A stretch of 64,000 bases of DNA from Denitrovibrio acetiphilus DSM 12809 (lineage in GTDB: Bacteria; Chrysiogenota; Deferribacteres; Deferribacterales; Geovibrionaceae), in the NCBI RefSeq assembly GCF_000025725.1, contig NC_013943.1, forward strand, positions 1,488,001 to 1,552,000, in the 5' to 3' direction. The notes below the pieces were generated by a model that was not told the origin of the DNA, did no database searches, and saw only the letters and a program-made list of their open reading frames with translations. A program made the position numbers and the translations under genes. Within the stretch, counting starts at the first letter, position 1; each line of letters starts with the position of its first letter. This document shows, one piece after another, positions 23,796 through 50,579 of this stretch.

Positions 23796-23865
23796 TGTAA
23801 GCATCCCTAAAAATTTTACAGTTTAAAATTAGAGTTTTCCTGTAGATTAATAACAGGAGGACTTA

Positions 23866-24132
23866 ATGAAACGCAGTCGATTTTCAGAAACTCAGATCGT
23901 AAAAATACTCAAAGAAGCCGAGTCCGGCAGACAGGTTAAAGACATTTGTCGAGAGCACGGCATCAGTGACGCCACCTATTACAACTGGAAGTCCAAATAC
24001 GGAGGCATGGAAGCCTCAGACATCAAGAGATTAAAAGAGCTAGAAGAGGAGAATCGCAAACTGAAGCAGATGTTTGCTGATCTTAGCCTAGAGAATACAG
24101 CCCTGAAGGATATTCTCTCAAAAAAGCTTTAA
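23866..24132 (+). CDS. IS3-A OrfA, copy 1
   Basis: 88 residues. Helix-turn-helix N-terminus (KRSRFSETQIVKILKEAESG, GISDATYYNWKSKYGGM) and a leucine zipper (LKELEEENRKLKQMFADL), as in IS407-group OrfA. Near its 3' end the heptamer A AAA AAG (24120-24126) is a classic -1 slippery site; after slippage the frame runs open into OrfB, giving the OrfAB transposase. Confidence 0.93.
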   Translation: MKRSRFSETQIVKILKEAESGRQVKDICREHGISDATYYNWKSKYGGMEASDIKRLKELEEENRKLKQMFADLSLENTALKDILSKKL

Positions 24133-24182
24133 AGCCGTCGGAGAAGCGTAGTTTAGCAGACTACTGTAGAGCAATATACGGC

Positions 24183-24965
24183 ATGAGCGTCAGTCATGCT
24201 TGCCGTACAGTCAGCATAAGCCGTCCGGTTTATTACTATCAGCCGGATGTAGACAGAGATAATCATGTTATCGCTGTTTTGCTTGAACTATGTGAGAAAT
24301 ATCCGGGATATGGCTTCGGAAAGCTGTTTGCCATTATCCGTCGGCTTGGACATAAATGGAATCATAAGAGAGTTCATAGGGTTTATTGCCTTTTGAAGCT
24401 CAACATGCGCCGTAAGGCCAAGAGAAGGCTTCCAAGTAGAAATCCTCTGCCTATCAGTGTGCCTGAATCCATCAACCAGTGCTGGTCTATAGATTTCATG
24501 AGCGACAGCTTATACTGCGGGAGGAAATACAGGACATTTAATGTCGTTGATGACTTTAATCGGGAAGCTCTTGCCATTGAGGTTGACCTTAATCTTCCGG
24601 CAGCAAGAGTTATCAGGGTGCTTGACAGGATAGCTTCTTGGAGAGGTTATCCGGCTAAACTCAGAATGGACAACGGTCCTGAGTTCATATCAGTAAAACT
24701 GGCTGACTGGGCGGAGTATCATGATGTTGAGCTTGAGTTCATACAGCCAGGCAAGCCGTTTCAGAATTCATATGTGGAAAGGTTTAATCGTACATTCAGG
24801 AACGAGGTATTGGACAGGCATTTGTTTTTCTCTTTAAGCGAAGTTCGGGAAGAAGCTGATCGATGGATGGTTGAATACAATACAGAAAGACCGCATGATT
24901 CTCTGGGAAAAATGACTCCAGAGGAGTATGCTGAAAGAGCGGAAAACTCTAAATATCTGCTGTAA
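24183..24965 (+). CDS. IS3-A OrfB integrase-core transposase, copy 1
   Basis: 260 residues from the first ATG, but the frame is open back to the slippery site at 24120, so the functional product is probably the OrfAB fusion. DDE motif: CWSIDFMSDSL, LRMDNGPEF and the Glu of SYVERFNRTFRNEVLD. Identical in protein sequence to copy 2. Confidence 0.93.
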   Translation: MSVSHACRTVSISRPVYYYQPDVDRDNHVIAVLLELCEKYPGYGFGKLFAIIRRLGHKWNHKRVHRVYCLLKLNMRRKAKRRLPSRNPLPISVPESINQCWSIDFMSDSLYCGRKYRTFNVVDDFNREALAIEVDLNLPAARVIRVLDRIASWRGYPAKLRMDNGPEFISVKLADWAEYHDVELEFIQPGKPFQNSYVERFNRTFRNEVLDRHLFFSLSEVREEADRWMVEYNTERPHDSLGKMTPEEYAERAENSKYLL

Positions 24966-24984
24966 GAAAAGAGGGACGCTTACA

Positions 24985-26649
24985 AGTTTGACAGAATTAT
25001 AGCTTTTACCACGCTTGATATCTCAAAATATTATGCTGTTAAAATGTGGGTGATTAAAGACAAGATTAGTATTCTTGGTAAAAAGATGCCTATATTTATT
25101 ATAGTCAACTGGGAAGTTGCAATCCGCCCAGTTGAGATAGAACGATTTTCAAATATCTTTGGAGCCAGGCTTGCTTCATATGCTGGATCAGCAGAAGCAC
25201 GTGGTTTAATGAAATATTTAACCAAGACTGGCTTTAATCTAGTTGAACTTCTGTCTTTTGACGATGCTCATTACCAAAGAATACGCTCCAGAATACTTAC
25301 ACTGTCAAATGCTAAAGTAAGTCACTTGTTTGATATATTCGATCTTTGTCGTGAAATTATTATTAATAATCGAAATGGCTGCAATATTCTCAGGTACGTA
25401 CTTTATCATATGAACAACAAAATCATTGCTAATCAAATTGATGATGAAAACAGACGGTTATCTGGGTTGAAACTCGCTTATGGGTGCATACCTTTTGAAC
25501 AAATGCCTTTTTGCACGTCGCTATTGCATCATAACCCTCGATTAAATGATTTATTTGATTGTATCGACTCTACGAACAGAATGCATGAGGTACTTGCCCG
25601 TTATGTGCTTGTGAATGCAGAGACACATGGACAGTTATATACACCTGAAAAAGACCTTGAGCGATTTGGCGAAATAAACCAGCTTGTTAGTACTTTCAAT
25701 GGGAGACTTTACCATAACCCACGTCACCAAGCACGTAAACTAGAAGAGCGCAATAAGCACTATTTTATAGTAGGTTATGAACATGATACCGTTAAGATAA
25801 TCGAGCAACTCATTGAATTATCAAATAGGGGGCTAAAAAACTATACCAGTTCTGTTGACAGCTGGTTAGCATCAGCAATTCATCCAGTGGATTGTGACGA
25901 AAAGAAAGTTGCATTGAGACAAATGTTTCAAGACTCATCAGTAGCATTAATTTATGGCTCTGCAGGCACGGGAAAATCTACCTTAATAAACCATATCTCT
26001 AACTTTTTCATAAATCAAAGTAAGCTGTATTTGGCCAATACTAATCCTGCTGTAGACAATATGAAACGTAGAGTTAACCTACAAAACGATGACACTGATT
26101 TTATGACAATCGCAAAGTTTTTAAACAGGAGTGGCGTTCGCACAAAATACGATATCATGGTCATAGATGAATGTAGTACAGTAAATAACACGGATATGAA
26201 AAACCTTTTGAGTAAAGCAAAATTTGAGTTGCTTATTTTAGTAGGAGACACCTACCAAATAGAAGCAATAAGGTTTGGTAACTGGTTTAACGCAGCAAAG
26301 GGTTTTGTACCTCCAACCTCAGTTTGTGAACTCGTAAAACCATATAGAAGCCACAATCAAGAATTACAAACTTTATGGGATAGAGTGCGTAGTATGGATG
26401 ACTGCATAAAAGAATCAATTGTCAGAAATCAATACTCATCGACACTTAACGCTTCGGTGTTTGAACCAATTGAACAAGATGAAATAATTCTATGCCTTAA
26501 TTATGATGGTCTTTATGGAATTAATAACATTAATCGATTTTTACAAGAAGCGAACCCTCAACAAGCTTTTACTTGGGGACTTCACACATACAAAGTCGGA
26601 GACCCAATATTATTCAATGAATCCGACCGTTTTTCACCAGTGATTTATA
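24985..26649 (+). pseudogene. SF1 DNA helicase, middle and C-terminal fragment
   Basis: Open from the IS3-A edge to the edge of the RM transposon; the longest ATG-started part begins at 25044. Walker A GSAGTGKSTLINH, Walker B IMVIDECSTV, and a RecD/UvrD-like LVGDTYQIEAIRFGNWF place it in superfamily 1. The N-terminal 205 codons are at 51,750-52,366 on the other strand. Joining the two after removing one AGTT copy keeps frame (...ATEKASKF then DRIIAFTTLDIS). The 3' end is also lost: after GDPILFNESDRFSPVIY the frame enters the transposon repeat and stops at 26672. Confidence 0.88.
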
Positions 26650-26675
26650 GGCTATTTGCATTTGAGGGTTGAATT
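26650..26675 (+). repeat. left terminal inverted repeat of the RM transposon
   Basis: Begins GGCTATTTGCATTTGAGG and matches the right end (reverse complement) at 25 of 26 positions. It cuts the helicase reading frame exactly at its first bases. A looser internal copy (TGCATATTGGGGTTGATTT) lies at 26713-26731. Confidence 0.8.
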
Positions 26676-26782: not shown

Positions 26783-28702
26783 ATGGATCAACAAACATTT
26801 GCGAATAAAATATGGTCAGTAGCTGACCTTCTGTTAGGCGATTTCAAACAAGCTGAATACGGACGAATTATTCTGCCGTTTATGGTGCTCAGAAGACTTG
26901 AATGTGTTCTTGAGCCCACTAGGGAATCTGTGCTGGAACAATATGAAGCAGTTAAAGATCAGGGACTTGACCTCGACTTGATTCTCCCAGGAATAGCTGG
27001 GTGTACATTCTATACTACCTCAAAATTTACTCTCTCTACTTTGGGAGCAACAAATACCAAGCAAAACCTCGAAGACTATATAAGTAAGTTCTCCTCAAAT
27101 GTCCGTCAGGTATTTGAACAGTTTTCATTCAGCAGCTGGATTGGTAAACTTGAAGAAGCAAATCTCTTGTATCTTGTATCAAACGAATTTAAAGATTTAG
27201 AGCTTCATCCGTCAGTTGTTTCCAACTATGAGATGGGCTTAGTTTTTGAACACCTGATTCGCAAGTTTGCTGAAGCGTCAAATGACACTGCCGGAGAGTT
27301 TTACACTCCAAGAGATGTTGTGCGTCTGGCTACAACACTTGTTTTCTCTACAGATCAGGAAGCATTAAGCGGTGAAGGCATTGTGCGTACAATTTATGAC
27401 TGTGCTGCCGGAACAGGAGGCTTTCTTTCGTCCGGTATTGAGCTCGTGGGAGAGTGGAACACTAACGCTACTATCATTCCCTATGCTCAGGAGCTTAACC
27501 CTGAGACTCATGCTATCTGTGTAGCCGACAAACTTATCCAAGGCTATGACACCCGCAATATAAAGTTTGGGAACACTCTTTCAAATGACCTTCTGTCGGG
27601 AGAAACTTTCAACTATTGTCTTGCGAATCCGCCTTTCGGTGTGGACTGGAAGAAGGTTCAGAAGCCTGTTAACGATGAGCACAGAGTAAAAGGCTATGCC
27701 GGAAGGTTCGGCCCAGGACTTCCGAGAGTAAGTGACGGCTCTATGCTGTTCCTGCTTCACCTGCTTTCCAAACGTAAGCCACCAGAGGAAGGCGGGACAC
27801 GAATAGGGATAGTCCTTTCTGGCTCCCCTTTGTTTAATGGCGGAGCAGGTTCTGGAGAGTCGGAGATCCGCAGGTGGATACTTGAGAATGACTGGCTTGA
27901 AGCTCTTGTTGCTCTGCCGACTGATATGTTCTACAACACAGGTATCAGCACATATATATGGGTACTTTCTACAAATAAAGAAGAGCATAGAAAGGGGCTG
28001 GTACAGTTAATTGACGCAAGTAAGATATCCACTCCTATGCGTAAAAATCTTGGCAGTAAGCGCAAATGGCTGAATGATGAACAGATCACTGAGACAGCGA
28101 GAATTCATGATGCTTTTGAAGAAAGTGATGTCAGCAAGATATTTGAGACTGAACAGTTTGGTTACAGACGCATTACAGTCGAAAGACCTCTCCAGCTTAA
28201 ATTCTCCGTAACACCTGAGAATATTGAGTCATGGGCAAACAGTAAGAACGCTGAATATGTTGATGAGTTATCCAAAGTTTCCGGTGAATATCTGGATATT
28301 GACAGCTTCCTTAAAGCTGCCGGAATAAAGAAGCCGAGTGCCGCATTAATCAAAAATATCTGCAAGTTTTTTGGGAAACATTACCCTGATGCAAAGGTGA
28401 TATGTGACGCAAAAGGCAACCCTTTACCTGATCCTGACCTGCGTGATTACGAAAACGTGCCACTGGGCGAAGATATTGATGAATATTTTGAAAGAGAAGT
28501 TATACCTCATGTGCCGGACGCATGGATAGATACCGCTAAAAAAGATCATAAAGATGGTTTAGTGGGCATTGTTGGGTACGAAATAAACTTTAACCGATAT
28601 TTCTATGAGTATGTACCGCCAAGATCGCTGGAAGATATAGATGCTGACCTTGAAGCTGTTGAAAACGCCATCGCAGAGCTCCTGAAAAAGGTGACAAGAT
28701 GA
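26783..28702 (+). CDS. hsdM: type I restriction-modification DNA methyltransferase subunit
   Basis: 639 residues. HsdM N-terminal helical domain (KIWSVADLLLGDFKQAEYGR), then the N6-adenine methyltransferase core: TPRDVVRL, SAM-binding DCAAGTGGFL (motif I) and catalytic ANPPFGVDW (motif IV). It methylates the target adenines and forms M2S with HsdS. GTGGAG precedes the ATG. The stop overlaps the rhuM start by 4 bp. First gene of the cargo operon. Confidence 0.96.
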   Translation: MDQQTFANKIWSVADLLLGDFKQAEYGRIILPFMVLRRLECVLEPTRESVLEQYEAVKDQGLDLDLILPGIAGCTFYTTSKFTLSTLGATNTKQNLEDYISKFSSNVRQVFEQFSFSSWIGKLEEANLLYLVSNEFKDLELHPSVVSNYEMGLVFEHLIRKFAEASNDTAGEFYTPRDVVRLATTLVFSTDQEALSGEGIVRTIYDCAAGTGGFLSSGIELVGEWNTNATIIPYAQELNPETHAICVADKLIQGYDTRNIKFGNTLSNDLLSGETFNYCLANPPFGVDWKKVQKPVNDEHRVKGYAGRFGPGLPRVSDGSMLFLLHLLSKRKPPEEGGTRIGIVLSGSPLFNGGAGSGESEIRRWILENDWLEALVALPTDMFYNTGISTYIWVLSTNKEEHRKGLVQLIDASKISTPMRKNLGSKRKWLNDEQITETARIHDAFEESDVSKIFETEQFGYRRITVERPLQLKFSVTPENIESWANSKNAEYVDELSKVSGEYLDIDSFLKAAGIKKPSAALIKNICKFFGKHYPDAKVICDAKGNPLPDPDLRDYENVPLGEDIDEYFEREVIPHVPDAWIDTAKKDHKDGLVGIVGYEINFNRYFYEYVPPRSLEDIDADLEAVENAIAELLKKVTR

Positions 28703-29715
28703 ACAGCAAAGGCGAAATAATCATTTACGAAACAGATGACGGGAAGCTTCAGCTTGATGTGCTGATGGAAGATGAGACACTTTGGCTTACTCAAAGTGAC
28801 ATGGCAAACCTCTTTCAGTGCTCAAAGGATAATATCTCTCTACACTTGAAAAACATCTATGAAGAAGGAGAGCTTGAACCACAAGCAACTACCGAGGATT
28901 TCTCGGTAGTTCGTCAGGAAGGTGACAGGCAAGTTAAAAGGACTGTAACTCATTACAACCTCGATGTGATTATATCTGTCGGATACCGTGTAAAGAGCAT
29001 GATAGCCACACGTTTCCGCATATGGGCAACCAAGCAGCTTAAAGAATATATCGTCAAAGGCTTTGTGATGAATGACGAGAGGCTTAAGAATCCCGGAGGA
29101 TGGGATTACTTTGATGAGCTCCTTGAGCGCATCCGTGAGATACGGGCCTCAGAAAAAAGGTTTTATCAGAAGGTTCGTGACCTCTTTGCACTCAGTATTG
29201 ATTATAAAGACAGCCAGCAAGCGAGCCAGACTTTCTTTGCAGAAGTGCAGAATAAGCTTCTTTATGCTGTTACAGGCTATACGGCAGCGGAGTTAATCGT
29301 TAAACGCTCTGACTCAAACATGCCGAATATGAACCTTACATCATGGGAAGGCAGCCGAGTCCGCAAGAGTGACGTGATAACAGCTAAAAACTACCTTACA
29401 TCCGATGAAATAGACTCTCTTAACAGGCTTGTGGTGATATTTCTGGAGCAGGCAGAACTGAGAGTAAAAGACAGAAAACAGCTTACCCTTGATTACTGGC
29501 GGAGCAACGTGGACAGGATGCTTGAATTTAATGAGAAGCCTATTTTACAGGGTGCGGGTTCTATCAGCAAAGAGCAGATGAAACGTATAGCTCATGAGCG
29601 TTTTGAGGATTTTGATAAGAAGCGGAAAATAGCTGAAGCTCAGGAAGAAGATGCAAAAGACCTTCAGGAGCTTGAAACCCTCCAGAAAGGCTTAGAGCAG
29701 GGAAAAAAGAAATGA
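28699..29715 (+). CDS. rhuM: RhuM-family protein inside the hsd operon
   Basis: 338 residues. The RhuM family signature is clear: WLTQSDMANLFQCSKDNISLHLKNIYEEGEL, followed by YNLDVIISVGYRVKS and RFRIWATKQLKEYIVKGFVMNDERLKNPGG. The N-terminal part looks like a KilA/Bro-type DNA-binding fold; the C-terminal half is helical and charged. Biochemical role unknown. It overlaps both neighbours by 4 bp, so it is made with the RM subunits and probably modulates them or acts as an extra defence factor. Confidence 0.9.
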   Translation: MNSKGEIIIYETDDGKLQLDVLMEDETLWLTQSDMANLFQCSKDNISLHLKNIYEEGELEPQATTEDFSVVRQEGDRQVKRTVTHYNLDVIISVGYRVKSMIATRFRIWATKQLKEYIVKGFVMNDERLKNPGGWDYFDELLERIREIRASEKRFYQKVRDLFALSIDYKDSQQASQTFFAEVQNKLLYAVTGYTAAELIVKRSDSNMPNMNLTSWEGSRVRKSDVITAKNYLTSDEIDSLNRLVVIFLEQAELRVKDRKQLTLDYWRSNVDRMLEFNEKPILQGAGSISKEQMKRIAHERFEDFDKKRKIAEAQEEDAKDLQELETLQKGLEQGKKK

Positions 29716-31037
29716 GCTATAAAGCATATCCGTCATATAAAGACAGTGGTATTGAGTGGCTTGGAGAAATTCCTGAGCATTGGGCAATAGAAAGGTTTAA
29801 GTTTCAGCTGAGAGCTGGTTTTGAGGGTTTAAAAATTGGTCCTTTTGGCAGTCAAATAAAAGCAGAATTGCTTAGTGATGAAGGAATAAAAGTATATGGA
29901 CAAGAAAATATAATTAAAAACAACTTTGACCTTGGTCATCGTTTCGTATCTGAAGAATTATTTTGTGAGTTAGAAGTATATGAAACTCTACCTGGTGATA
30001 TTTTAGTGACTATGATGGGGACTGCTGGCAGATGTCAGGTCACTCCAGAAAAGATCAATCAAGGGATTATAGATTCTCACCTTATTAGGCTTCGTGTTAA
30101 CAAGTGTTTGTTAAGCCGGTTTTGTAAGTATCTTATAAATGACTCTGCATATATTGAACATCAGATAAGGTTAATGGGCAAGGGCTCTATAATGCATGGG
30201 TTGAATTCGACGATCATTAAGAATCTTATTTTTATACTTCCCCCATTGAAAGAGCAAAGTATTATTTTGAAATATCTAGATAAAAAAACTGCTCAGATAG
30301 ATGAACTGATTGATAAAAAGAAGAAACTGATAGAAAAGCTAGATGAAAAGCGTACTGCTCTCATTACTCATGCTGTCACAAAAGGCATGAACCCAGATGT
30401 GAAGATGAAAGACTCAGGCGTTGAGTGGCTGGGAGAAGTACCTGAACATTGGGACATAGTGAAAGCAAAATATCTATTCACAATAGAAAAGCGTATTGCT
30501 GGGTTTTTAGGTCACGATGTCCTGTCTATCACGCAAACAGGTATAAAAGTTAAGGATATTGAATCCGGAGAAGGACAGCTTTCTATGGACTACACAAAGT
30601 ACCAAATAGTTAAAGTTGGCGACTTTGCTATGAACCATATGGACTTACTTACAGGATATGTTGATATATCGCAATTTGATGGAGTAACGAGTCCTGATTA
30701 CAGAGTATTCAGATTGTCAGCTCAAAACTGTAATCCACAATACTATCTTTACCATATGCAAAGAGGATATAAGGAAAAAATCTTCTTTAATTATGGGCAT
30801 GGAAGTGCACAGTTGGGACGCTGGCGTTTACCTACAGATGAGTTTAAGGAATTGTCCTTCCCTGTTCCTCCATATGAAGAGCAACAAGCCATTGCTGAAT
30901 ACATAAGCAGTGAGACAATCCTAATAGACTCTCTAATTTCCAAAACTGAAGAAAGCATAAGCCTGCTGAAAGAAAAACGATCCGCACTGATAACCGCTGC
31001 GGTTACCGGTAAAATAGATGTCAGGGAGGAAGCCTAA
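29712..31037 (+). CDS. hsdS: type I restriction-modification specificity subunit
   Basis: 441 residues with the two-fold design of HsdS: two target recognition domains, each introduced by a near-identical box (SGIEWLGEIPEHW near residue 12 and SGVEWLGEVPEHW near 235) and each followed by a helical spacer (KTAQIDELIDKKKKLIEKLD; EESISLLKEKRSALITAAVTG). It recognises a bipartite DNA target. The recognition domains differ from each other; the target cannot be read from sequence. One base overlaps hsdR. Confidence 0.95.
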   Translation: MSYKAYPSYKDSGIEWLGEIPEHWAIERFKFQLRAGFEGLKIGPFGSQIKAELLSDEGIKVYGQENIIKNNFDLGHRFVSEELFCELEVYETLPGDILVTMMGTAGRCQVTPEKINQGIIDSHLIRLRVNKCLLSRFCKYLINDSAYIEHQIRLMGKGSIMHGLNSTIIKNLIFILPPLKEQSIILKYLDKKTAQIDELIDKKKKLIEKLDEKRTALITHAVTKGMNPDVKMKDSGVEWLGEVPEHWDIVKAKYLFTIEKRIAGFLGHDVLSITQTGIKVKDIESGEGQLSMDYTKYQIVKVGDFAMNHMDLLTGYVDISQFDGVTSPDYRVFRLSAQNCNPQYYLYHMQRGYKEKIFFNYGHGSAQLGRWRLPTDEFKELSFPVPPYEEQQAIAEYISSETILIDSLISKTEESISLLKEKRSALITAAVTGKIDVREEA

Positions 31038-34000
31038 TGTCTACCGCTCACAGAGAAATACACTTTGAAGACTACATAGTAGACCAACTGACCTCATCTG
31101 GCTGGGAAGTTGGCAAGCATACAGAATATGATCGTGGCAGGGCTCTATATTACCCTGATGTCCTTGCATGGATACAGGATAGCCAGCCTGAAACATGGGA
31201 AAAGCTTATCCGGATTCACGGCAGTGATACTGAACCTGCTGTGCTTGACAGGCTCGTGAAGTCTCTGGAGTCTAAAACAGGTGGGACAATAAATGTCCTT
31301 AGAAGAGGTTTTGGAATGGCAGGAGGCGGCACTATCCAGATGAGCCAGACCATGCCGGAAGACGACAGAAACGAAACTTCAGTAAAACGATATAATCAGA
31401 ACCGCCTCCGCATTGTGAGACAGGTCAGATATTCCCTTGATAACGAAAACGCTATAGATCTTGTGGCTTTTATAAACGGTATCCCTGTGGCTACTTTTGA
31501 GCTTAAGACTGATTTTACCCAGTCTGTTGAGGCTGCAAAGGCACAGTACAAACAGGACAGGAAGCCAAAAAGCTCTTCATCAGGCAGACTGGAACCGCTT
31601 CTTGCCTTCAAAAGAGGAGCTATCGTTCACTTCGCAATGTCAGACTCTGAGGTATATATGGCGACCAAGCTTGACGGTGAGGCGACATATTTCCTGCCGT
31701 TTAATCAGGGGAATGACGGAGCTGCAGGTAATCCGCCATCTGCCGAGAATAGCTACCCTGTCAGCTACATGTGGGAAAGGATATTACAGAAAGACAACTG
31801 GCTTAGAATATTTCATAGATTTGTATTGATAGAGAAAAAGGAGTATGAGACCGCTTCCGGAGAGATACGCTTCAAAGAGACAATGATATTTCCACGCTAT
31901 CATCAGTGGGAATCTGTAACTAAAGTTATAGACGCAGTAAAGGTGGAAGAAGCCGGTCATCAGTATCTTATTCAGCATAGTGCCGGTTCGGGCAAGACAA
32001 ATACTATCTCGTGGATATCCCACGAGCTTATAAGACTCAGGTATGCAAGCGGAGCATCATACTTCAACTCTGTTATCGTTGTTACTGACAGAACGGTTCT
32101 CGATGCCCAACTACAGGAAGCCATCAGCCAGATTGAACACCAATACGGTGTTGTTCATGCTGTGGACAGAGAGGCATCAAGCCTTTCCAAAAGCCAACAG
32201 CTAGCAAATGCACTTATGACTGGCACACCTATCATTGTGGTAACAATACAAACTTTCCCATATGCTATGGAAGCAATTTTGACAGAGCAGAGCCTTCAGG
32301 ATAAAAGATTCGCTGTCATTATGGATGAAGCCCATAACTCCCAGACAGGAAGCACAGCTCAGAAGCTGAGACAGGTACTGGCTCTGAATTCAAAGGCTGA
32401 TATGGCTTCTATGACATCTGATGAGATACTTGAGATGATTCAGAAAGTGCGTGGTATGCCTAAGAATGTAAGCCACTTCGCTTTCACCGCAACTCCGAAA
32501 CATTCCACGCTCTCATTATTCGGCAGACCTATGGATCCATCCAAGCCGCTTTCAAAAGATAATCCTCCGGTCCCATTCCATACATATACTATGCAGCAGG
32601 CCATTGAGGAAGGATTTATACTCGATGTTCTGCAGAACTATACCCATTACGACACAGCATTCCGGATTGGCGAGAAATTCGTAAAGGATGAGACAAGAGT
32701 TGATGCTAAATATGCCAAGAGAGCTTTGGCAAGATGGGTGTCCCTGCACCCGACAAATGTATCTCAGAAGGTGGAGTTTATTGTTGAGCACTTTTATAGC
32801 AGTGTAGCTATGCTCCTGAACGGTCAGGCGAAGGCGATGGTTGTGACCAGCTCAAGGGCGGCAGCAGTGAAATATAAGCTAGCTTTTGATAAGTATGTTG
32901 AAAAAAAGGGGTATGTCGGCATACGCTCTCTAGTGGCCTTTTCCGGCCAGATACTTGGGAAAGATATCAATGATGACTTTAACCACTTTCCTGACGACCA
33001 ATCATTTACTGAAGATAATATGAATCCTGATACCAGGGGGCGTGATCTTCGTAAGGTTTTTGATACTCGTGAATATCAGGTAATGCTTGTTGCAAATAAG
33101 TTTCAAACTGGTTTCGACCAGCCGAAGCTTGTTGCAATGTATCTGGATAAAAAGATATCCGGTGTGGAGGCAGTACAGACTCTTTCACGCCTGAACAGAA
33201 CCTATGCGGGTAAAGACAAGACATATGTTATAGATTTTGCCAACAAGCCGGATGAGATAGTTGAGGCCTTTAAGACATATTACAAAAGTGCAGATGTGGC
33301 AAATGTGCAGGATCCTAATATCGTATATGATATGAAGGAGCGTCTTGACGGTATGCAGATGTTTGAAGCTGAAGAGGTTCGCCAGTTCGGTATTGCTATA
33401 ACCTCAGCTAAAGTAACACATGAGAAGCTTTATTCACTTACACAACCGGCAACAGACCGTTTTAACGGGCGCATGAAGATGCTGAACAACGCAATTGAAG
33501 TTTCTGAAAAAGAATTTCTGCTGGCTAAGAGCAAGCAAGATGAGGCAGGAACAAAGAAAGCGGATGCCAGAAGGTCTGAGTATACAAAAGCCCGTGACGA
33601 GCTCTTAATCTTCAGTGAGGGCTTAACCAAGTTTGTAAATATCTATGAGTATGTAGCTCAGTTGGTGGAGTTCGGAGATGCTTCTATAGAGTCTTTTGCT
33701 TCATACGCAAAATTGTTGAGCAAGAGACTCAAAGGTATAGCTCCAGAGCAGGTTGACCTGAACGGTCTACAGCTTACCCATTTCAAAATGACAGACACGG
33801 GCTCAGTTGATACACGACTTGATGCCGCAGACAAACCTCTGCTTGAACCCGCAAAAGGTACTGGTGGGCGTGATCCGAGAGACAGGGAAAGAGCATACCT
33901 TCAGGAGCTGATCAAAATGCTCAATGATGTATTCGGTAAGGATATCACCGATAAAGACAAGGTGGCCTTTGCGGTTCATGTCAGCGAGAAACTCAGAGAC

Positions 34001-34237
34001 AATAAGAAAGTCATGGCTCAGGTTAAAAACAACAGCAGAGAACAGGCTATGAAAGCTGATCTGCCAGCCGAAGCCACAAAAGCTATTGTGGGAGCTCTTG
34101 GCTCTCATCAGGCGATGGCAAAACGTCTTCTGAGTGATGAATTTACACGCAACACCTTCTTATCTGTTGTCTACGAACTTTTAAAGAGTGATGCTGTTGC
34201 CGGACTGATAACAGAAGCAAGGGATGAAGACCAATGA
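31037..34237 (+). CDS. hsdR: type I restriction enzyme translocase/nuclease subunit
   Basis: 1,066 residues. The N-terminal nuclease domain has DLVAFINGIPVATFELKT (the D...ExK site); the motor has Walker A HSAGSGKTN, the DEAH box MDEAHNSQ, FAFTATPKH (motif III) and the late helicase motif QTLSRLNRTY. The C-terminal helical region binds the MTase. Intact length, so the nuclease looks functional. Its TGA overlaps the ATG of the transposase (ATGA). Confidence 0.95.
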   Translation: MSTAHREIHFEDYIVDQLTSSGWEVGKHTEYDRGRALYYPDVLAWIQDSQPETWEKLIRIHGSDTEPAVLDRLVKSLESKTGGTINVLRRGFGMAGGGTIQMSQTMPEDDRNETSVKRYNQNRLRIVRQVRYSLDNENAIDLVAFINGIPVATFELKTDFTQSVEAAKAQYKQDRKPKSSSSGRLEPLLAFKRGAIVHFAMSDSEVYMATKLDGEATYFLPFNQGNDGAAGNPPSAENSYPVSYMWERILQKDNWLRIFHRFVLIEKKEYETASGEIRFKETMIFPRYHQWESVTKVIDAVKVEEAGHQYLIQHSAGSGKTNTISWISHELIRLRYASGASYFNSVIVVTDRTVLDAQLQEAISQIEHQYGVVHAVDREASSLSKSQQLANALMTGTPIIVVTIQTFPYAMEAILTEQSLQDKRFAVIMDEAHNSQTGSTAQKLRQVLALNSKADMASMTSDEILEMIQKVRGMPKNVSHFAFTATPKHSTLSLFGRPMDPSKPLSKDNPPVPFHTYTMQQAIEEGFILDVLQNYTHYDTAFRIGEKFVKDETRVDAKYAKRALARWVSLHPTNVSQKVEFIVEHFYSSVAMLLNGQAKAMVVTSSRAAAVKYKLAFDKYVEKKGYVGIRSLVAFSGQILGKDINDDFNHFPDDQSFTEDNMNPDTRGRDLRKVFDTREYQVMLVANKFQTGFDQPKLVAMYLDKKISGVEAVQTLSRLNRTYAGKDKTYVIDFANKPDEIVEAFKTYYKSADVANVQDPNIVYDMKERLDGMQMFEAEEVRQFGIAITSAKVTHEKLYSLTQPATDRFNGRMKMLNNAIEVSEKEFLLAKSKQDEAGTKKADARRSEYTKARDELLIFSEGLTKFVNIYEYVAQLVEFGDASIESFASYAKLLSKRLKGIAPEQVDLNGLQLTHFKMTDTGSVDTRLDAADKPLLEPAKGTGGRDPRDRERAYLQELIKMLNDVFGKDITDKDKVAFAVHVSEKLRDNKKVMAQVKNNSREQAMKADLPAEATKAIVGALGSHQAMAKRLLSDEFTRNTFLSVVYELLKSDAVAGLITEARDEDQ

Positions 34238-35544
34238 TTGATTTACTACAGTTAAAAGGTGTTAACCCCATAGGGCAGCGGATAGAAGATGATATTCTCC
34301 TTATACTTGCGGAGTCTAATGTTTCGGAGCCGGAGTCCTGTTCCGGATGCGGTTCAAAACCTGTATATAAACACGGTAAACGTACACATGTTTATGCTGA
34401 CACCCCTATGCATGGGATGCCTGTAAAAGTAGAGATAGAACGGCAGAGATACCGCTGTCAATCATGCGGAACCGTTATTGTACCCAATATACCATCTCTT
34501 GATGAAAAGCGAGTTGTAACAAAGCGGTTAATAGAATTCGTTCAGGCAAGGTGCTTTAACAACACCTTTACATTACTAGCAAACGAAACCGGACTTGCAG
34601 TGAATACCATTAAAGCAATCGCCTTAGATTATACAGAAGATCTGGAAACTTCTGTATACAGGGAAACCCCAAGGCTGCTTGGTCTTGATGAAGTAATGAT
34701 TTCGGGCGGTTACAGAGCTGTAATGGTTAACCTTGAGATGAATACTCTTTTCGATATCCATGACAACAGGAAGCTGGCAAGTATGCGTCAGTATTTTGAG
34801 AAGCTGAAGGATAAAGACAATATTGAATGGGTTTGTGCGGATATGTGGGAACCATACAAGGTTCTCATTTCAGAGCAGATTCCACAAGCAAAGCTTGTAA
34901 TTGACAGATTTCATGTTGTAAGAATGGCTTCAAACGCTATGGAGCAAATCAGAAAAAAGCTTCAGAGCGAACTATCTCATTCAGAGCGGCTTAAGGTCAA
35001 AAAGAACATTCGCTGGTCACTGCTTAAAGGCAGTAAAAGCAAATCGGAATATGACCATGAGGTTGTTGAATATATCAGAGAAAATTATCCGGAACTGGCT
35101 TTAGCTTATGATCTGAAGGAAACTTTTTTCAATATATATGAGTTCCCAGACAGAGCTTCCGGAGAGGCGGCATATAAAGAATGGAAAGATGCTATACCGC
35201 TGAAATTCAGCCCAGAGTTTAATACTGTCATCAAAATAGTGGATAGCCACTATGAGGACATTTTTAACTATTTTGACTGCCCTATTACGAATGGCTACAC
35301 AGAAGCCATGAACGGAGTTATGAAGGCGGCAAACCGCATGGGCAGAGGTTACAGTTATGAGGTTATTCGGGCGAAGCTGTTATTCTCTAAAATAGCCAGA
35401 CAGTCAGGTAGTGTGATTGTTCAGCCATACAGCGACAGACCATCACATCTTAAAGAAGCATCTCCAAAAGAAAAATCTTTCAGGGACTATGGTGCGTCTA
35501 TCCTAACTCTGGATACGATGTCAGAACGTGGGGAATTGGATTGA
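34234..35544 (+). CDS. ISL3-family transposase, translationally coupled to hsdR
   Basis: 436 residues. N-terminal zinc finger (CSGCGSKPVYKHGKR, then RYRCQSCG), then the ISL3 DDE domain: LLGLDEVMISGGYR, VCADMWEPYK, and NGYTEAMNGVMKAANRMGRGYSYEVIRAK with the catalytic Glu. Its start codon overlaps the hsdR stop, and there is no inverted repeat close on either side, so it is not a separate IS that landed here; the 26-bp repeats at 26,650 and 36,946 are the only ends found for it. Confidence 0.92.
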   Translation: MIDLLQLKGVNPIGQRIEDDILLILAESNVSEPESCSGCGSKPVYKHGKRTHVYADTPMHGMPVKVEIERQRYRCQSCGTVIVPNIPSLDEKRVVTKRLIEFVQARCFNNTFTLLANETGLAVNTIKAIALDYTEDLETSVYRETPRLLGLDEVMISGGYRAVMVNLEMNTLFDIHDNRKLASMRQYFEKLKDKDNIEWVCADMWEPYKVLISEQIPQAKLVIDRFHVVRMASNAMEQIRKKLQSELSHSERLKVKKNIRWSLLKGSKSKSEYDHEVVEYIRENYPELALAYDLKETFFNIYEFPDRASGEAAYKEWKDAIPLKFSPEFNTVIKIVDSHYEDIFNYFDCPITNGYTEAMNGVMKAANRMGRGYSYEVIRAKLLFSKIARQSGSVIVQPYSDRPSHLKEASPKEKSFRDYGASILTLDTMSERGELD

Positions 35545-35571: not shown

Positions 35572-36807
35572 ATGATGAACAGGTATAGTATTCAAATATT
35601 TGCGGAAGTAGAGTTGCGAGATTATCTTGAACAAAAAAAAGCATCGATAGTTGATTCCATCGAAAAAGAAAGTGATGACTATCTGCTAAATGTCAATGAA
35701 GTCGATTATATTAAGTATAAAACGGAAGAAGCGAAGATCGAACCTTTAAAAATTCATGTTGATCAAATTTACGCTTCATCATCTGAACAAATGATTCCAG
35801 CAGAATATTTCCCTAATACTTTTTTCGTTCGACAGGGCGAAAAATATAAAAAAGATGTTATCAGATTCCATATGCCTTTCAGTGGTAATAGCTATTTGCT
35901 AAAATGCAAACCAAGTACGAGAATACTGTGGTCAACAGGTATTGAGATCAGTGGACAAGAGTTTACTTTTGAAATAATCAACTTTAGTAATGATGTTGCT
36001 AAAATTACAATTGATAAAGACTCAAAGATCCGTGATATTATGAAGCAACTTGTAAATGTTACAAAAGACATTGATCAATATAACTCAGGTATCGAAACTC
36101 AAGTCAAAAATGCATTTGACTCCCGTAAAAAGAAAATCCTCAGTAAAAATAATATTCTAGCATCGCTTGGTGTGCCAATAAAAAAAGCTACAAATGTACC
36201 ACAAACCTTTGCAGTACCCACACAGGGAATACGAAAGAAAATCCCTATCAGCAGACCTCAAGTTCACGAGGCCGGCTATACTCCTGAACCAAGCCTTGAT
36301 TTAACCACTTACAATTCGATTCTCAAACTGATTCATGATGTCGGTAAGGAATTTGAAAGATTGCCCAGTCTATATTGCGACAAGGAAGAAGAGCATTTAA
36401 GAGATCATTTTTTAATGATGCTTGAGCCTAATTTTGAAGGGTCGGCTACAGGTGAGACTTTTAACAAGAAAGGCAAAACGGATATCTTATTAAGACATGA
36501 TGGAAAAAATGTTTTTATTGCTGAATGTAAATTCTGGAAAGGCTCAAAAGCGTTTCTGGACACAATATCACAACTCTTAGGGTATCTAAGCTGGAGAGAT
36601 TCAAAAGCAGCAGTGATTATGTTTGTACAGAACAAAGACTTTACATCTGTTTTAAACTCGGTAAAAGTTGCCGTTACCGAACATCCTAATTTTATTGAAT
36701 TAAAAGTGATGAAAGACGAAACATGGCTTAACTGCACCGTTCATTTAAATGGCGATAGAAACCGATTAGTTTATTTAGCAGTGATGTTATATCATCTCCC
36801 TAAATAA
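35572..36807 (+). CDS. putative PD-(D/E)xK nuclease, cargo of the RM transposon
   Basis: 411 residues. The C-terminal ~130 residues contain TDILLRHDGKNVFIAECKFW, a D...ExK nuclease core as in restriction-endonuclease-fold proteins, followed by a helix-strand pair with QLLGYLSWRDSKAAVIMFV. The N-terminal ~270 residues are mixed alpha/beta and unrecognised. GGAG lies before the ATG. A second, accessory defence nuclease is the simplest reading, though no partner is apparent. Last gene before the right end. Confidence 0.65.
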   Translation: MMNRYSIQIFAEVELRDYLEQKKASIVDSIEKESDDYLLNVNEVDYIKYKTEEAKIEPLKIHVDQIYASSSEQMIPAEYFPNTFFVRQGEKYKKDVIRFHMPFSGNSYLLKCKPSTRILWSTGIEISGQEFTFEIINFSNDVAKITIDKDSKIRDIMKQLVNVTKDIDQYNSGIETQVKNAFDSRKKKILSKNNILASLGVPIKKATNVPQTFAVPTQGIRKKIPISRPQVHEAGYTPEPSLDLTTYNSILKLIHDVGKEFERLPSLYCDKEEEHLRDHFLMMLEPNFEGSATGETFNKKGKTDILLRHDGKNVFIAECKFWKGSKAFLDTISQLLGYLSWRDSKAAVIMFVQNKDFTSVLNSVKVAVTEHPNFIELKVMKDETWLNCTVHLNGDRNRLVYLAVMLYHLPK

Positions 36808-36920: not shown

Positions 36921-36946
36921 AATTCAACCCTCAAATGCAAATAACC
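36921..36946 (-). repeat. right terminal inverted repeat of the RM transposon
   Basis: Reverse complement begins GGTTATTTGCATTTGAGG; it matches the left end at 25 of 26 bases. The stop codon of the flanking membrane pseudogene (TGA) falls inside it. Confidence 0.8.
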
Positions 36947-37514
36947 ACAATAAAAAGCCCATAACCGATAAAGGCAGTATGGAACGACCAGTACCCGTTA
37001 ATGGCAAATATCCCGTCTTTGAAATATGGCAAAAAGGTCAACGGAAAGAAACTCGCTCCAACAAATACAGCAAAAGCTGCAGCCCACTTAGGCATCAGAG
37101 CAGGCTTTTCTTTATCAAGGAAAACCAGCGCACCTATCGCAAACCCCTGCACAGTAGTAATCATATAAGTCATATCGTAAACATACCATCCTATGAAATG
37201 CACAGTTTTAACCAGCTCCGGGTCAGCCTGACCTGCAAACTCTGCACACCACACCCATAAAACCGGACAGAAAATTAGAACCCATCCAGTGAGGGTTCCT
37301 CCCATGAGATTTATCATAGCCAGAATGGGAGCTTTCTCCCTTTTCCACATCTGAATCGTAAGCTGCACCGACCATACTGCATAAAGCAGACCAAAACATG
37401 CTGATAGTGCCTGCCCAAGCAAAATTCTATCCCTGTACTGAATATAAAAATTATTCACAAGCTCCACTGAGGAAAATTTAGGATCAGGCGGCGGTAGCTC
37501 AGTTGTTCATTCAT
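36947..37514 (-). pseudogene. polytopic membrane protein, frameshifted and truncated
   Basis: Five or six hydrophobic segments over ~179 residues (starting VELVNNFYIQYRDRILLGQ, ending FHTAFIGYGLFIV). The best start, an ATG at 37514 with AAGGAG upstream, is out of frame; restoring one base in the GAACAAC tract links it to TTELPPPDPKFSSVELV. The 3' end is cut by the right repeat of the RM transposon within a membrane segment. Family not recognised. Confidence 0.65.
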
Positions 37515-37752: not shown

Positions 37753-37762
37753 AGGAGTGTTT

Positions 37763-38622
37763 ATGTCTAGAATATACTACAACTCAATTTTTACTAAGAT
37801 GCTTGTTCTCATTATATGCTTAGTCTTTCTAATCAATATTTTAGTTTTCAGTGTATTTCACTATTATTCACTTAAACTTGATTCTAGCTCAAGGGCTAAT
37901 CTCGAGGCGTATGCCGTTTACATTAAAGACGATTTGGGCTTACCTCCTAATAAAGTCAAAGCGGCAGCGCTATCCAAGAAATTAAACGCTTCCGTTTCTT
38001 ATCATTCCGAAAGTGAAAAATGGGTAACCGGACAGCACACAGAAGATTTCCCTGATGATAAACTGTATCCTTTGGTTGATAGTGAAGGGATTAACGTTGC
38101 TTCCTCTCACGGCTTTATTCGTTTTACTTTCACAGAAGCAAACCACGTCCTGACAGTAAGAATACTACCGAATACCAGTGATCTACACGAACTTAGGATT
38201 CTTCTTCTGTTATTACTTGGGTTTGTTGTAATCATTTTATTTTCAGCTTTCTTAGTTATCAGAAAATTACTTTCCCCGATAAAGATGATGTATTCTGCTA
38301 TGGAAATAGTCAGAGCGGGAGATTTTCAGCACAGGATACAGCACAAAGGCAAAGACGAGCTGGGGCAGTTGTGTACAACTTTTAACGACTTATCTGAAAC
38401 CATAGAACAGGCTATTTACTCCAGAGAGCATTTAATAGCAGACATAAGCCACGAACTAAGAACACCGCTTACAAGCATGAGAATCGCAGCAGACATGGTG
38501 GATGATAAAGAACTAAAAGCGTCTTTAATCGACGATATCTCTCACATGGATAAGTTAATAAATACTGTCCTTGAGTACTCCAGATTCGGTTTCTCAAATT
38601 TAACAATAAAAAAGAATCAATT
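37763..38622 (+). pseudogene. sensor histidine kinase, N-terminal part, split by IS21
   Basis: Residues 1-286 of a 430-residue kinase. Start ATG 37763 after GAGGAG. Membrane segments at ~12-35 and ~145-165 flank a periplasmic sensor of ~100 residues; then HAMP (RKLLSPIKMMYSAMEIVRAGDF) and the HisKA box HLIADISHELRTPLTSM with the phosphorylated His. The IS21-family element interrupts it after KKNQF; the rest is at 41,175-41,607. 860 + 433 nt = 431 codons, so the reading frame is exact once the element and one AATT copy are removed. Confidence 0.93.
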
Positions 38623-38709
38623 TGTCATTTTGCAGTTCAATTGACCCCTCTGATTTGCAGGTTAATTGACCCCCTCTCTCCTTAATTTTTGTTTACGTCA
38701 TCTTCCTTT

Positions 38710-39456
38710 TTAAATCAACTTTTTTCTGGATTTAATTTTTCTATAGCTCTCACCCTCAATGACAACTCTGTATGCATTATGCACCAACCTGTCGAGTGCC
38801 GAGTTTGCGAGAATCGGGTCATGGAATAGTTCCAGCCATTCATCCGTATCCCTGTTGCTTGTGATCACAGTAGATGCTCTCCCGTACCTTTCCACAACAA
38901 TCTCATAGAAGTCAGTAGACTGTTGTTCATTCAATGCCTTCAGTCCGAAGTCATCTATAATAAGCATATCGGGAGTAATAAATCCAAGCAGAGCCTTCTC
39001 ATAGGAGTAGTCAGCTCTGGACTGCTGCAGTCTTTTAAAAAGTTTCTCTGCTCTGACCATCAGGACTTTTTTACCTCTTCGCACAGCAGCGTGGGCCAAT
39101 GCATTTGCCAGATATGTTTTACCAACACCGACAGGTCCGCACAGCATCACGTTATCTTTTTCCTCAATAAAATTCAGACCGAACAGTCCTTTGATCATTT
39201 CTCTGTCTACCTGCACCGGAGCGTCGAAGTCATATCTCTCCAGTGTCTCAAAGGGGTTAATACCAGCTTTTTTCATTTGATTATCCACCTGGTTATGAAG
39301 ACGCCTGTCCACTTCATCCTGCATTACCAACTCAAGAAACTCTGCATATGTCAGGTGCTGCTGTTTGGCATAAGCCATCCGTTCCGGTAAAGTAGCCAGT
39401 ATTCCCGACAGCCTTAGTTTTTTTACTGTCTGTTTCAGTTCATTTGATAGTGTCAT
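38710..39456 (-). CDS. istB: IS21-family helper ATPase IstB
   Basis: 248 residues, DnaC-like AAA+ protein. Walker A GPVGVGKTYLANALAHAA, Walker B MLIIDDFGL, sensor TSNRDTDEW. It assists IstA in target selection. AAGGAGG lies upstream of the ATG, which overlaps the istA stop by 17 bp. Confidence 0.95.
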   Translation of the reverse strand: MTLSNELKQTVKKLRLSGILATLPERMAYAKQQHLTYAEFLELVMQDEVDRRLHNQVDNQMKKAGINPFETLERYDFDAPVQVDREMIKGLFGLNFIEEKDNVMLCGPVGVGKTYLANALAHAAVRRGKKVLMVRAEKLFKRLQQSRADYSYEKALLGFITPDMLIIDDFGLKALNEQQSTDFYEIVVERYGRASTVITSNRDTDEWLELFHDPILANSALDRLVHNAYRVVIEGESYRKIKSRKKLI

Positions 39457-40981
39457 CGTGACCTCCTTCGTAGAAATAGTTTTTATTGCGTGTAAATTTA
39501 GCGGGTTTCAGCACTTTACAGGAAGATTTTTCTACCTCATTATTCTGCATAGAGAGCTCAATTATATTTACTACTCTGTACACATTGATGAGGTCGAAGC
39601 TTACTGCCCGCTGACATGCCTGCTCCATACGACCATGACCATATTTATCAGCATCCCGGATGAGTTTCTGAGCCTGCCTTAGATTCTGCCATGGGAAGTC
39701 ACCGGATAGCAGACGCTCCATAAATTCTCCGCAGTAGAAACCTACTTCTTTAGCCTTATAAATATGATATTCACAGCTCTTCATGGTGTATCCACGTTTC
39801 TCTTCAGGATAGTCACTGGTGTCTGTTGAGCGTTTACCTTTTTTCATACGACTATGCACCTTTATCTGCTGCTCTTTGTGGTAAATGCGAACCAGCTTGC
39901 TGTCCAGCCTTACAGAAACCTCTTTGCCTATGTATACAGTGGGGACAGAATAAAGAGCGCTTTGAATACGGATATGATGGTCTGGATGCACTTTGCAGGT
40001 TCCCCAGAAAGGTACATCGTAACGCTCCTGTTCCAGAGGGAGCAGATTCGCCTGCTCTTCCATATCAAATACAATGCGGGGATGCTTTTTAGTTGTGCCA
40101 TGTATACGCATGCCGGAGACAGTTCTGCACCAGGCATCTGCTGCTTCCTGTGCATGGGAAAGGCTCCTGAATGTCTCTCCTTTAAAGAAGTTATCTCTGA
40201 CATATGATACATTTCTTTCAACTTTAGGCTTGTCTTTCGGAGCAACTGCCCTTGCAGGGTCTATGATAAATCCACGGTAACAAGCATACTCATAAAAGTA
40301 GCGGTTGAACTGCGCATCATAACGGTCTGCCTTATCTATGGCTGTCTTCATGTTGTCGACAATCACTTTCGCAGGAACACCGCCGAAGAATTCCCAGGCT
40401 GATTCCAGACCGGTGATTACTTCCTGGAATTTCATGCTATGGCAAAGGTGAACATACTGATAGCGGCTGTAAGGCAAAGTCACTATCAATGCATGGACCA
40501 CACGCCTTCTGTCTGTCTCAGGGTCATATAAAAGCCCCAGACGACCGAAATCAACCTCTGCGTATTCGCCTGGAGCAGTTTCAGGCATGCGGACTGTGTT
40601 GTGCTTAAAGAAACCAAGATCTTCATGAAGGTAGCGGCGCAGTGTGTCATAGCTTACAGAAACACCATGACGCTTAAGAAGAGAATGAATCTTGGTCATA
40701 GTGAGGCGCTCTTCACTCAGCCAGTGTTCCAGTTTCTCTTTGTATGGAATAAGAACTTTACGGCACTCACTGACTGGGCGAGAACCGTCTCCGTATACTT
40801 TGCGGTAGACACCGTATGCGATCTCCTCCAGTGGTGGCTCACTGTCACTTTCGAAACCCAAAGTGACAGCCAGTTCTATGTATTTCCTGATGGTGTTTCT
40901 AGACATCTTGCGAGCCTTGGCGATCGTCTTAAAGCCGTCGCCATGCTTTCTGCGTCGTAGAATATCCAGGATGTCGTGCAT
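39440..40981 (-). CDS. istA: IS21-family transposase IstA
   Basis: 513 residues from the ATG at 40981 (AGGAG 6 nt upstream; the ATG further out has none). N-terminal helix-turn-helix (ILRRRKHGDGFKTIAKARKMSRNTIRKYIEL) and DDE core with AEVDFGRLG, VIVDNMKTAIDKA and the Glu of KDKPKVERNVSYVRDNF. Complete. Confidence 0.95.
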   Translation of the reverse strand: MHDILDILRRRKHGDGFKTIAKARKMSRNTIRKYIELAVTLGFESDSEPPLEEIAYGVYRKVYGDGSRPVSECRKVLIPYKEKLEHWLSEERLTMTKIHSLLKRHGVSVSYDTLRRYLHEDLGFFKHNTVRMPETAPGEYAEVDFGRLGLLYDPETDRRRVVHALIVTLPYSRYQYVHLCHSMKFQEVITGLESAWEFFGGVPAKVIVDNMKTAIDKADRYDAQFNRYFYEYACYRGFIIDPARAVAPKDKPKVERNVSYVRDNFFKGETFRSLSHAQEAADAWCRTVSGMRIHGTTKKHPRIVFDMEEQANLLPLEQERYDVPFWGTCKVHPDHHIRIQSALYSVPTVYIGKEVSVRLDSKLVRIYHKEQQIKVHSRMKKGKRSTDTSDYPEEKRGYTMKSCEYHIYKAKEVGFYCGEFMERLLSGDFPWQNLRQAQKLIRDADKYGHGRMEQACQRAVSFDLINVYRVVNIIELSMQNNEVEKSSCKVLKPAKFTRNKNYFYEGGHDDTIK

Positions 40982-41174
40982 GTGGTACTCCTTTCGCATT
41001 CAATTTCTCCATAGTTATTTTCTATGGAGGCATTATACAAAGGAGAGATTTTTACAAAACTTTTTACAAAAGCTGACACCACAGAGGGGTCAATTGAATT
41101 GCAAATATGGGGGGTCAATTCAGCTGCAAATATTTGCCGCCAGGGGGGTCAATTGAACTGCAAAATCACAAATT

Positions 41175-41607
41175 TAATTTCACTAAAATTGCTAAGAAAT
41201 GCGTATCCCCTTTTAATAAAGACGTGGAGTTAATCGAGCTAGTAATCGATGACGAAATCATTTTTTACGGTAGCAGCCTTTTGATAGAGAGTCTGATTAC
41301 TAACCTTTTAAGCAATGCGGTAAAATACTCATCCAATTCTGAAAAACATGTACTTATGATGGCTGAAGCAAAAGATGGAATTTTAAATATTACCATAAGA
41401 GACCATGGTGCAGGAATATCTGGCGAGGATATACCATACATATTTGAGCCTTTTTACAGGTCTGATTCAGCTAGAACAAGAAACACAGGTTTTGGACTTG
41501 GCTTAAGCATCTGCAAAAAAATTGTTGATATTCATAATGGAGAAATATCAGTCTCCAGCACAGAAGGTGCTGGAACTGAGATAAAAATATATTTCAAACT
41601 CAATTAA
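41175..41607 (+). pseudogene. sensor histidine kinase, C-terminal ATPase part
   Basis: Residues 287-430 of the split kinase. HATPase_c N box LITNLLSNAVKYSSNS, G1 RDHGAGISGEDIPYIFEPFYR, G2 GFGLGLSICKKIV. Without the IS the protein would read KKNQ-FNFTKIAKKC. As it stands there is no complete kinase; a downstream ATG could allow only the ATPase fragment. Confidence 0.93.
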
Positions 41608-50538: not shown

Positions 50539-50579
50539 AAACTGTACAGGATATGGGGACTGTAAGCGTCCCTCTTTTC

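Follow-up and report, generated by a model that had tools for sequence, protein, structure and literature searches.

A PDC-S54-family candidate nuclease gene between the transposase and the right end of an ISL3-family transposon that carries type I restriction-modification genes in Denitrovibrio acetiphilus

Introduction

What is a gene for a putative nuclease doing behind the transposase of a transposon that already carries a type I restriction-modification system, and what might its product do there? The question is raised by an intact gene encoding 411 amino acids, which runs from an ATG to a TAA codon at positions 35572–36807 (forward strand) of a 64,000-nucleotide stretch of the Denitrovibrio acetiphilus DSM 12809 genome, a single contig of 3,222,077 bp. 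This stretch is referred to below as the window, and loci elsewhere are designated by L numbers. Reading the letters alone, an earlier note had described the product as an unrecognised protein with nuclease residues, and had taken the gene for transposon cargo and perhaps a second anti-phage nuclease.

The transposon and its two copies

The gene lies in a 10,297-bp transposon bounded by 26-bp inverted repeats. The left terminal inverted repeat is at 26650–26675 on the forward strand and the right one at 36921–36946 on the reverse strand; the two differ at one position. Five genes follow from the left end, all on the forward strand. The first is hsdM, encoding the type I DNA methyltransferase (26783–28702; Pfam N6_Mtase and HsdM_N, PADLOC MTase_I), and the second a rhuM-like gene inside the type I operon (28699–29715; Pfam Virulence_RhuM, E value 2e-111; PADLOC PDC-S05, E value 2e-147). 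They are followed by hsdS for the specificity subunit (29712–31037; Pfam Methylase_S, PADLOC Specificity_I), hsdR for the restriction subunit (31037–34237; HSDR_N, SWI2_SNF2, and ResIII), and the gene for an ISL3-family DDE transposase (34234–35544; DDE_Tnp_ISL3, E value 1e-55; NF033550, E value 9e-83). Successive members of this series overlap by 1–4 bp, the overlap between hsdR and the transposase gene being 4 bp. The sixth gene, which fills the space between transposase and right end and matches the PADLOC family PDC-S54, is the only one set apart from its neighbour by a gap, starting 27 bp past the transposase stop codon (35542–35544). It is also the most AT-rich of the six, with 34.6% G+C compared to 37.6–44.8% in the other five, which fits a separate origin.

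A second copy of the element in the genome is identical across all 10,297 bp and is bounded by a perfect 8-bp target-site duplication, CAATAATA. The element has thus moved recently as one unit, with the PDC-S54 gene inside. When the whole genome was searched for the terminal repeat with up to three mismatches, the matches were the four ends of these two copies, i.e., two pairs, and nothing else. The window copy is flanked by GATTTATA and ACAATAAA, which show no matching 8-bp duplication. As an ISL3 transposon, the element therefore has the DDE transposase, the paired inverted repeats and, in the second copy and not in the window copy, the 8-bp duplication, while one more gene stands between the transposase and the right end. 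The missing duplication would be most simply explained by a subsequent deletion next to the right end. Exchange between the copies was considered as a cause and judged less likely, there being only two pairs of ends in the genome and both copies having the same direction. At its left end the window copy interrupts a gene matching PADLOC PDC-S53; the last part of that gene (profile positions 746–900) was not found near the left end, and only weak matches in another frame, about 980 kb away, were seen. A 178-residue open reading frame at 36931–37467, lacking any Pfam match, reaches into the right end.

Related ISL3 restriction transposons

Among the plasmid matches listed (40 rows of 4,966 records), the closest transposases are 44–46% identical to that of the window, and most of these 40 rows are annotated ISSm4-like, ISKpn25-like or ISL3; these names, like the retron names used below for plasmid genes, are those of the record annotations. 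According to the available text of one report, ISKpn25 is an ISL3 element of 8,154 bp with four open reading frames (PMC8796155). Four plasmid records with related elements were examined (L019–L022). In each of them hsdM and hsdR precede the transposase, with an annotated hsdS in three (all except L022) and additional genes between hsdM and hsdR in three (all except L020). The hsdR and transposase genes overlap by 8 bp in L019, L021, and L022 and are 4 bp apart in L020. Each of the four is bounded by inverted repeats like those of the window element, beginning GGCT, and by perfect 8-bp duplications. The window element accordingly shares with the ISKpn25/ISSm4 group the order hsdM ... hsdR-transposase, the GGCT-type repeats, and the 8-bp duplications. 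It differs at the right end: the distance from the transposase stop codon to the right end is 36–149 bp in the four relatives and 1,402 bp in the window element, where the extra gene lies. Because the relatives end so soon after the transposase, and the PDC-S54 gene is absent from all four, this gene is extra to a type of transposon that is already known. Its position behind the transposase is an arrangement not found in the four related elements examined.

The proposals of the earlier note that the open reading frame follows the transposase inside the element's ends, and that it is transposon cargo, are both borne out. The first is supported by the reading frame itself, the ISL3 transposase and the 26-bp inverted repeats; the second by the two identical copies with the same inverted repeats, the target-site duplication of copy 2, and the four related elements, none of which has the gene. 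As a separate observation, the rhuM gene (28699–29715), between hsdM and hsdS, occupies a second cargo slot; the other genes that three of the four related elements hold between hsdM and hsdR are annotated as PDDEXK nuclease, nucleotidyltransferase, and DUF262 HNH nuclease.

A comparable arrangement occurs on a gammaproteobacterial contig (L018), where hsdS, hsdR, an ISL3 transposase gene, and a PDC-S54 gene follow one another as in the window; the gene preceding hsdS is presumably of the DUF1016 type. The identity to the window counterparts is 53% for hsdR, 45% for the transposase, and 64% and 76% for the two pieces of the PDC-S54 gene, which is frameshifted. A right repeat is found 146 bp past this gene, with 22 of 26 positions matching the repeat of L020 (0 of 500 shuffles) and a weaker resemblance to the window's own repeats (18 of 26, 2 of 500 shuffles; 17 of 26, 43 of 500). 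The left end of the L018 element was not found in its genome, in which the one match was the right end. Similar ISL3 transposases number three among 369 gammaproteobacterial genomes, one of them being the centre of the search, and for the best new one the contig stops 41 bp past the transposase.

Family identity of the protein

Based on sequence analysis, residues 2–410 of the protein align with positions 1–407 of the 410 in the PADLOC model PDC-S54 (PDLC05036; E value 3e-157, 522 bits), a full-length match to a single-gene model. When ten diverse relatives were scanned, nine also matched PDC-S54 over their full length (362–527 bits), and the tenth (L062) by its nuclease domain only. The label "unrecognised" in the earlier note thus has to be given up to the extent that PADLOC-DB 2.0.0 lists the family as a candidate, and stands insofar as no credible family was found in Pfam, NCBIfam or PHROGs. 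The Pfam rows for DUF4665 and DUF5751 were sub-threshold and were dismissed as chance. A SNARE-like match in a PDB sequence profile (profile positions 127–188, best E value 0.009) is coiled-coil-like and was taken as compositional.

The PADLOC candidates were reportedly collected by Payne et al. (preprint) as genes that lie within known immune systems or are linked to them. The abbreviation PDC stands for PADLOC defence candidate in the available text of the source (PMC12813430). No description of the function of PDC-S54 was found in the literature searched. PDC-S54 is a candidate label, and the window copy differs in its setting, the slot behind the transposase of an ISL3 restriction transposon.

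The predicted C-terminal nuclease domain

The model, the fold search, and the alignment all point to a PD-(D/E)XK nuclease domain, predicted at residues 240–411 (36289–36804, forward strand). The full-length AlphaFold2 model, built from 12 sequences, is of moderate confidence (pLDDT 75, pTM 0.43) and has a disordered linker at about residues 194–239. The alpha-beta-beta-beta-alpha-beta core is present in the model at residues 273–352, with helices at 273–287 and 325–338 and strands at 305–309, 313–321, and 345–352, together with short strands near 297–302 that are of low confidence. The best solved-structure match to residues 240–411 is the restriction enzyme OkrAI (Z 9.5, 3.8 Å, 141 residues), followed by BamHI (Z 8.8, 3.8 Å, 140 residues); these Z values are slightly above the usual best for unmatched models. 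Residues 262–411 also match McrBC chain 7vsr_M, which we take to be McrC (Z 6.8, 3.7 Å, 114 residues). Foldseek alone returned nothing below an E value of 0.001 in the PDB or the viral library. The protein, as modelled, has the PD-(D/E)XK fold in common with BamHI, OkrAI, and McrBC, and differs from them in having no family match by sequence and in carrying an extra N-terminal domain of 200 residues.

Conservation was assessed in an alignment of 30 rows, i.e., the window protein and 29 relatives with identities as low as about 27%. Left out were L011 (in-frame stop), L014 (truncated), L018 (frameshift), L062 and L063 (different N-terminus), L052 and L053 (incomplete), and other plasmid hits. 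All 30 rows keep E273, E274, G301, K302, D304, E318, C319, W322, G324, Q334, Y338, W341, D343, and K345. The conserved Asp and the (D/E)-X-K motif that characterize this fold are thus present as D304 and E318 in every row and as K320 in 29 of 30, the exception being a haloarchaeal plasmid relative (L043) with Ala at this position. The predicted catalytic codons, on the forward strand, are 36481–36483 (D304), 36523–36525 (E318), 36529–36531 (K320), and 36571–36573 (Q334). The AECK motif (residues 317–320, codons 36520–36531) is more than a chance resemblance because D304, E318, C319, Q334, and Y338 are invariant and K320 nearly so. In L043 (8001–9200), ECA replaces ECK at the active site, and the protein is possibly inactive or uses another residue.

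The nuclease residues that had been noticed in the C-terminal core consequently find their place in a predicted fold with nuclease geometry, obtained by the structure prediction and fold search that the earlier note had proposed, and with restriction enzymes as the top solved matches. On the strength of the model and the conserved residues, the C-terminal domain very probably cuts DNA.

The N-terminal domain

Residues 1–200 (35572–36171, forward strand) form in the AlphaFold2 model an alpha/beta part followed by a long helix (142–199), and are proposed here as a recognition module. Folded alone from 17 sequences, this part reaches a pLDDT of 88.9 and a pTM of 0.76. A search of solved structures with the N-terminal model gave at best a GAF domain (Z 5.6, 73 residues), which is under the usual level for unmatched models, and no fold was assigned. 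The earlier statement that the N-terminal 270 residues match nothing holds for residues 1–200 as regards a clear fold, and fails in that the PDC-S54 model covers residues 2–410. The hydrophobicity of the long helix has a period of 3.6 residues that is stronger than one of 3.5, as in an amphipathic helix, and a heptad coiled coil or dimer, which was also considered, is not supported by this period.

The two halves of the protein differ in their rate of change. In the 14 rows most distant from the window protein, identity to it is 16–25% over residues 1–140 and 33–46% over residues 241–411, and in the plasmid proteins L062 and L063 the nuclease domain is joined to an unrelated N-terminus. Since the nuclease is conserved and the N-terminus changes fast and is sometimes exchanged, the N-terminal domain may well, on balance, be the part that decides when or what to cut, with no need of a partner methyltransferase or antitoxin. 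The L062 gene (5473–6507, on an Escherichia coli IncHI2A plasmid) precedes a helicase gene, and a gene annotated as retron St85 lies at a distance of about 6 kb; the arrangement suggests a two-gene variant.

Distribution of the family and cassette-like relatives

A scan of genome contigs found 14 close relatives with 49–76% identity. At nine of these a GTTAGC-type word of 8–11 bases stands before the gene and its reverse complement just past the stop codon, a pairing reached in at most 3 of 2,000 shuffles in each case. These nine look like single-gene integron cassettes, a reading that attC folding supports for some and not for others; the window copy and L018 do not have the features of a cassette. 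GTTAGC is found 27–30 nt before the start codon in 11 of the 14, and likewise in L049, from another genome. In the boundary-word test of 20 rows, from which L047 and L052 were not counted as loci on the opposite strand, no pair was found for L048 and L054, and L049 has a pair of six bases only (57 of 2,000 shuffles). The bottom-strand folding of attC is strong (z < -2.5) at L006, L007, L008, L012, and L015, weak at L005, L009, L011, L013, and L049, and near zero at L017, L018, and the window copy; at L010, L014, and L016 no downstream GTTA was found and the attC fold was not computed. L006 folds well, yet has no GTTAGC before its gene. Of the 16 genomes searched for an integron integrase at an E value of 1e-60, 7 have one that exceeds the curated cut-off, including that of L015, where it lies 6.5 kb from the PDC-S54-family gene on the other strand; none was found in the genomes of the cassette-like loci L005, L007, L008, and L016. 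Three of the 14 close relatives are broken, two within the coding sequence (an in-frame stop in L011 and the frameshift in L018) and one by truncation (L014), which fits a dispensable or costly gene, or else assembly error.

The PDC-S54 family is rare, patchy, and very wide, extending from Spiroplasma and Streptomyces to haloarchaea. Profile searches found it in one of 50 genomes of the window's phylum, which is the window's own, and in 3 of 369, 3 of 345, 3 of 57, and 2 of 299 genomes of four other groups, the centre genome being included in each count. It is present in 23 of 72,556 plasmid records, with 80% or more of the query covered in 13 cases, and in 2 of 50,697 phage records; in viral contigs, the profile search found five loci and the close-relative search none. 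In the tree, the window copy groups with L018 and the close relatives, mostly cassette-like ones, in a clade of 14 rows that is well supported (100/99). The inner order of this clade, and with it the order of the vehicles, is weakly supported.

Genetic neighbourhood of the relatives

The PADLOC scan of neighbours covered 20 larger open reading frames at six loci (L016, L017, and L058–L061). Five of these (L017 and L058–L061) have another defence or candidate gene nearby; at L016, where one reading frame was scanned, there was none. The L017 gene adjoins an AbiJ-like gene and Tn7-like genes of the TniQ and TnsA/TnsB types. L058 has an ApeA-like gene (ApeA/PDC-S58) about 1 kb away and an AimR regulator near it, the L060 gene adjoins an AbiU-like gene with PDC-S67 also near, and matches to PDC-S15 and PD-T7-5 lie within about 3 kb of the L059 and L061 genes, respectively. 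Elsewhere, a Schlafen AlbA_2 gene adjoins the relative at L057. On plasmids, the gene at L042 adjoins one for a reverse transcriptase that is annotated as retron Ec67, and a NACHT protein is encoded about 3 kb from the L039 gene. At L041, hsdS lies about 5 kb upstream and the gene for an Mrr-type nuclease about 5 kb downstream. No clear defence neighbour was seen in the plasmid relatives L040, L043, and L044, and nothing clear in L045 either.

The earlier note had held that homologues confined to non-defence contexts would speak against its reading; what was found is otherwise, with relatives near defence genes at L017, L018, L042, and L058–L061. As evidence, these neighbours are in part circular, PADLOC candidates having reportedly been picked by association with defence genes, and a second neighbour scan, meant as a control, was itself rich in defence genes.

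Proposed function and alternatives

Taken together, we consider it fairly probable that the product is a mobile anti-phage nuclease of the PDC-S54 family that works on its own, its gene having been captured as extra cargo in an ISL3 type I restriction-modification transposon. A role in defence against phages or other invading DNA, as such, has a good likelihood. A single gene that spreads as a cassette cannot rely on a methyltransferase or antitoxin travelling with it; if such a protein cuts DNA, it would have to tell foreign DNA from that of its host by itself, or stay silent until infection. The activity could accordingly take two forms: the cutting of modified or foreign DNA in a type IV-like manner, or a suicidal DNase activity that infection sets off.

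Darracq et al. and Kieffer et al. are said to have described anti-phage integron cassettes; close relatives of the PDC-S54 protein look like cassettes, and the window copy itself is no cassette. The available text of a review describes the spread of defence genes as single integron cassettes, with at least 16 of 179 cassettes of the Vibrio cholerae integron conferring phage resistance when expressed, and the modification-dependent, GmrSD-like system TgvAB of V. cholerae inside a type I cluster (PMC12409362). As far as that text goes, TgvAB resembles the window element in placing a second restriction activity within a type I restriction-modification cluster; it differs in consisting of two genes for DUF262/GmrSD proteins, and no kinship to the PDC-S54 protein is claimed. 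By this analogy we slightly prefer the type IV-like form, since with it the transposon would have a complement to its own type I system, as TgvAB provides in V. cholerae. On the ISL3 element, PDC-S54 would reinforce type I restriction with another line of defence. A bolder version, which we hold to be rather doubtful, is that of a one-protein restriction system with a new N-terminal recognition fold, telling foreign DNA by itself, passed among ISL3 transposons, cassettes, Tn7-like elements, prophages, and plasmids in both bacteria and archaea, and serving as a back-up against invaders that evade type I restriction.

The suicidal form amounts to a toxic abortive-infection DNase that its own N-terminal domain would keep inactive and that would destroy all DNA on sensing a phage product. 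Both the separate, fast-diverging N-terminal domain with its long amphipathic helix and the presence of the abortive-infection genes AbiJ and AbiU among the neighbours are consistent with it, while autoinhibition is not evident from the model alone. We regard this form as unlikely; it varies the favoured explanation and does not truly compete with it.

Improbable, in our view, is a selfish nuclease serving competition between mobile elements, such as plasmids or other transposons, instead of defence against phages. Plasmid, phage-contig, cassette, and transposon settings do dominate among those inspected, and the other defence genes nearby argue against it, though these may serve the same purpose.

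An orthodox, BamHI-like type II restriction endonuclease whose sites are shielded by a methyltransferase would agree with OkrAI and BamHI as the best fold matches and with the type I methyltransferase on the transposon. In its favour, too, one of six plasmid records examined (L040) has an annotated DNA methyltransferase near the gene (about 1.3 kb downstream, with a PD-(D/E)XK gene also downstream), and L006 has upstream a methyltransferase-domain gene of a general type. Against it, the other five plasmid records have no DNA methyltransferase annotated near the gene, and none would travel along with the nine of 14 close relatives that resemble one-gene cassettes. In BamHI, moreover, the position of K320 is occupied by Glu. 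A type II enzyme is for these reasons quite improbable.

Highly improbable is an accessory nuclease that helps the ISL3 transposase to cut donor DNA or choose targets: TnsA of Tn7 is likewise a PD-(D/E)XK-type nuclease, and the gene directly follows the transposase in two divergent ISL3 elements (by 27 bp in the window), but the four related ISL3 elements without the gene still have perfect 8-bp duplications, a relative of the window transposase was found at only one (L018) of the 29 loci where the protein or its nuclease domain is encoded, and the L017 gene adjoins Tn7-like genes with a TnsA-like domain of their own.

The window element shows that ISL3 restriction transposons can take cargo behind the transposase, which turns them into compact, mobile islands of defence genes, and the relatives show that mobile elements of several unrelated kinds have acquired members of one candidate nuclease family. 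Being a single gene, with a predicted active site that hardly varies and with relatives that seem to move as single cassettes, it also offers a direct way to function.

Other rearrangements in the window

The PDC-S53-like helicase gene (25044–26672 and 51746–52339) is split. Profile positions 191–745 are found at 24969–26651, adjoining an IS copy at 23796–24984, and positions 3–198 at 51746–52339 on the other strand, adjoining an inverted, identical IS copy at 50561–51749. The split would be explained if the segment between the two IS copies had been inverted, and the entire transposon with it. Further to the right, in the region 37757–41607, a gene that by eye encodes a sensor histidine kinase (37757–38644 and 41107–41607) appears to be split by an IS21-like gene pair at 38710–40999, which has 34-bp inverted ends at 38619–38652 and 41141–41174.
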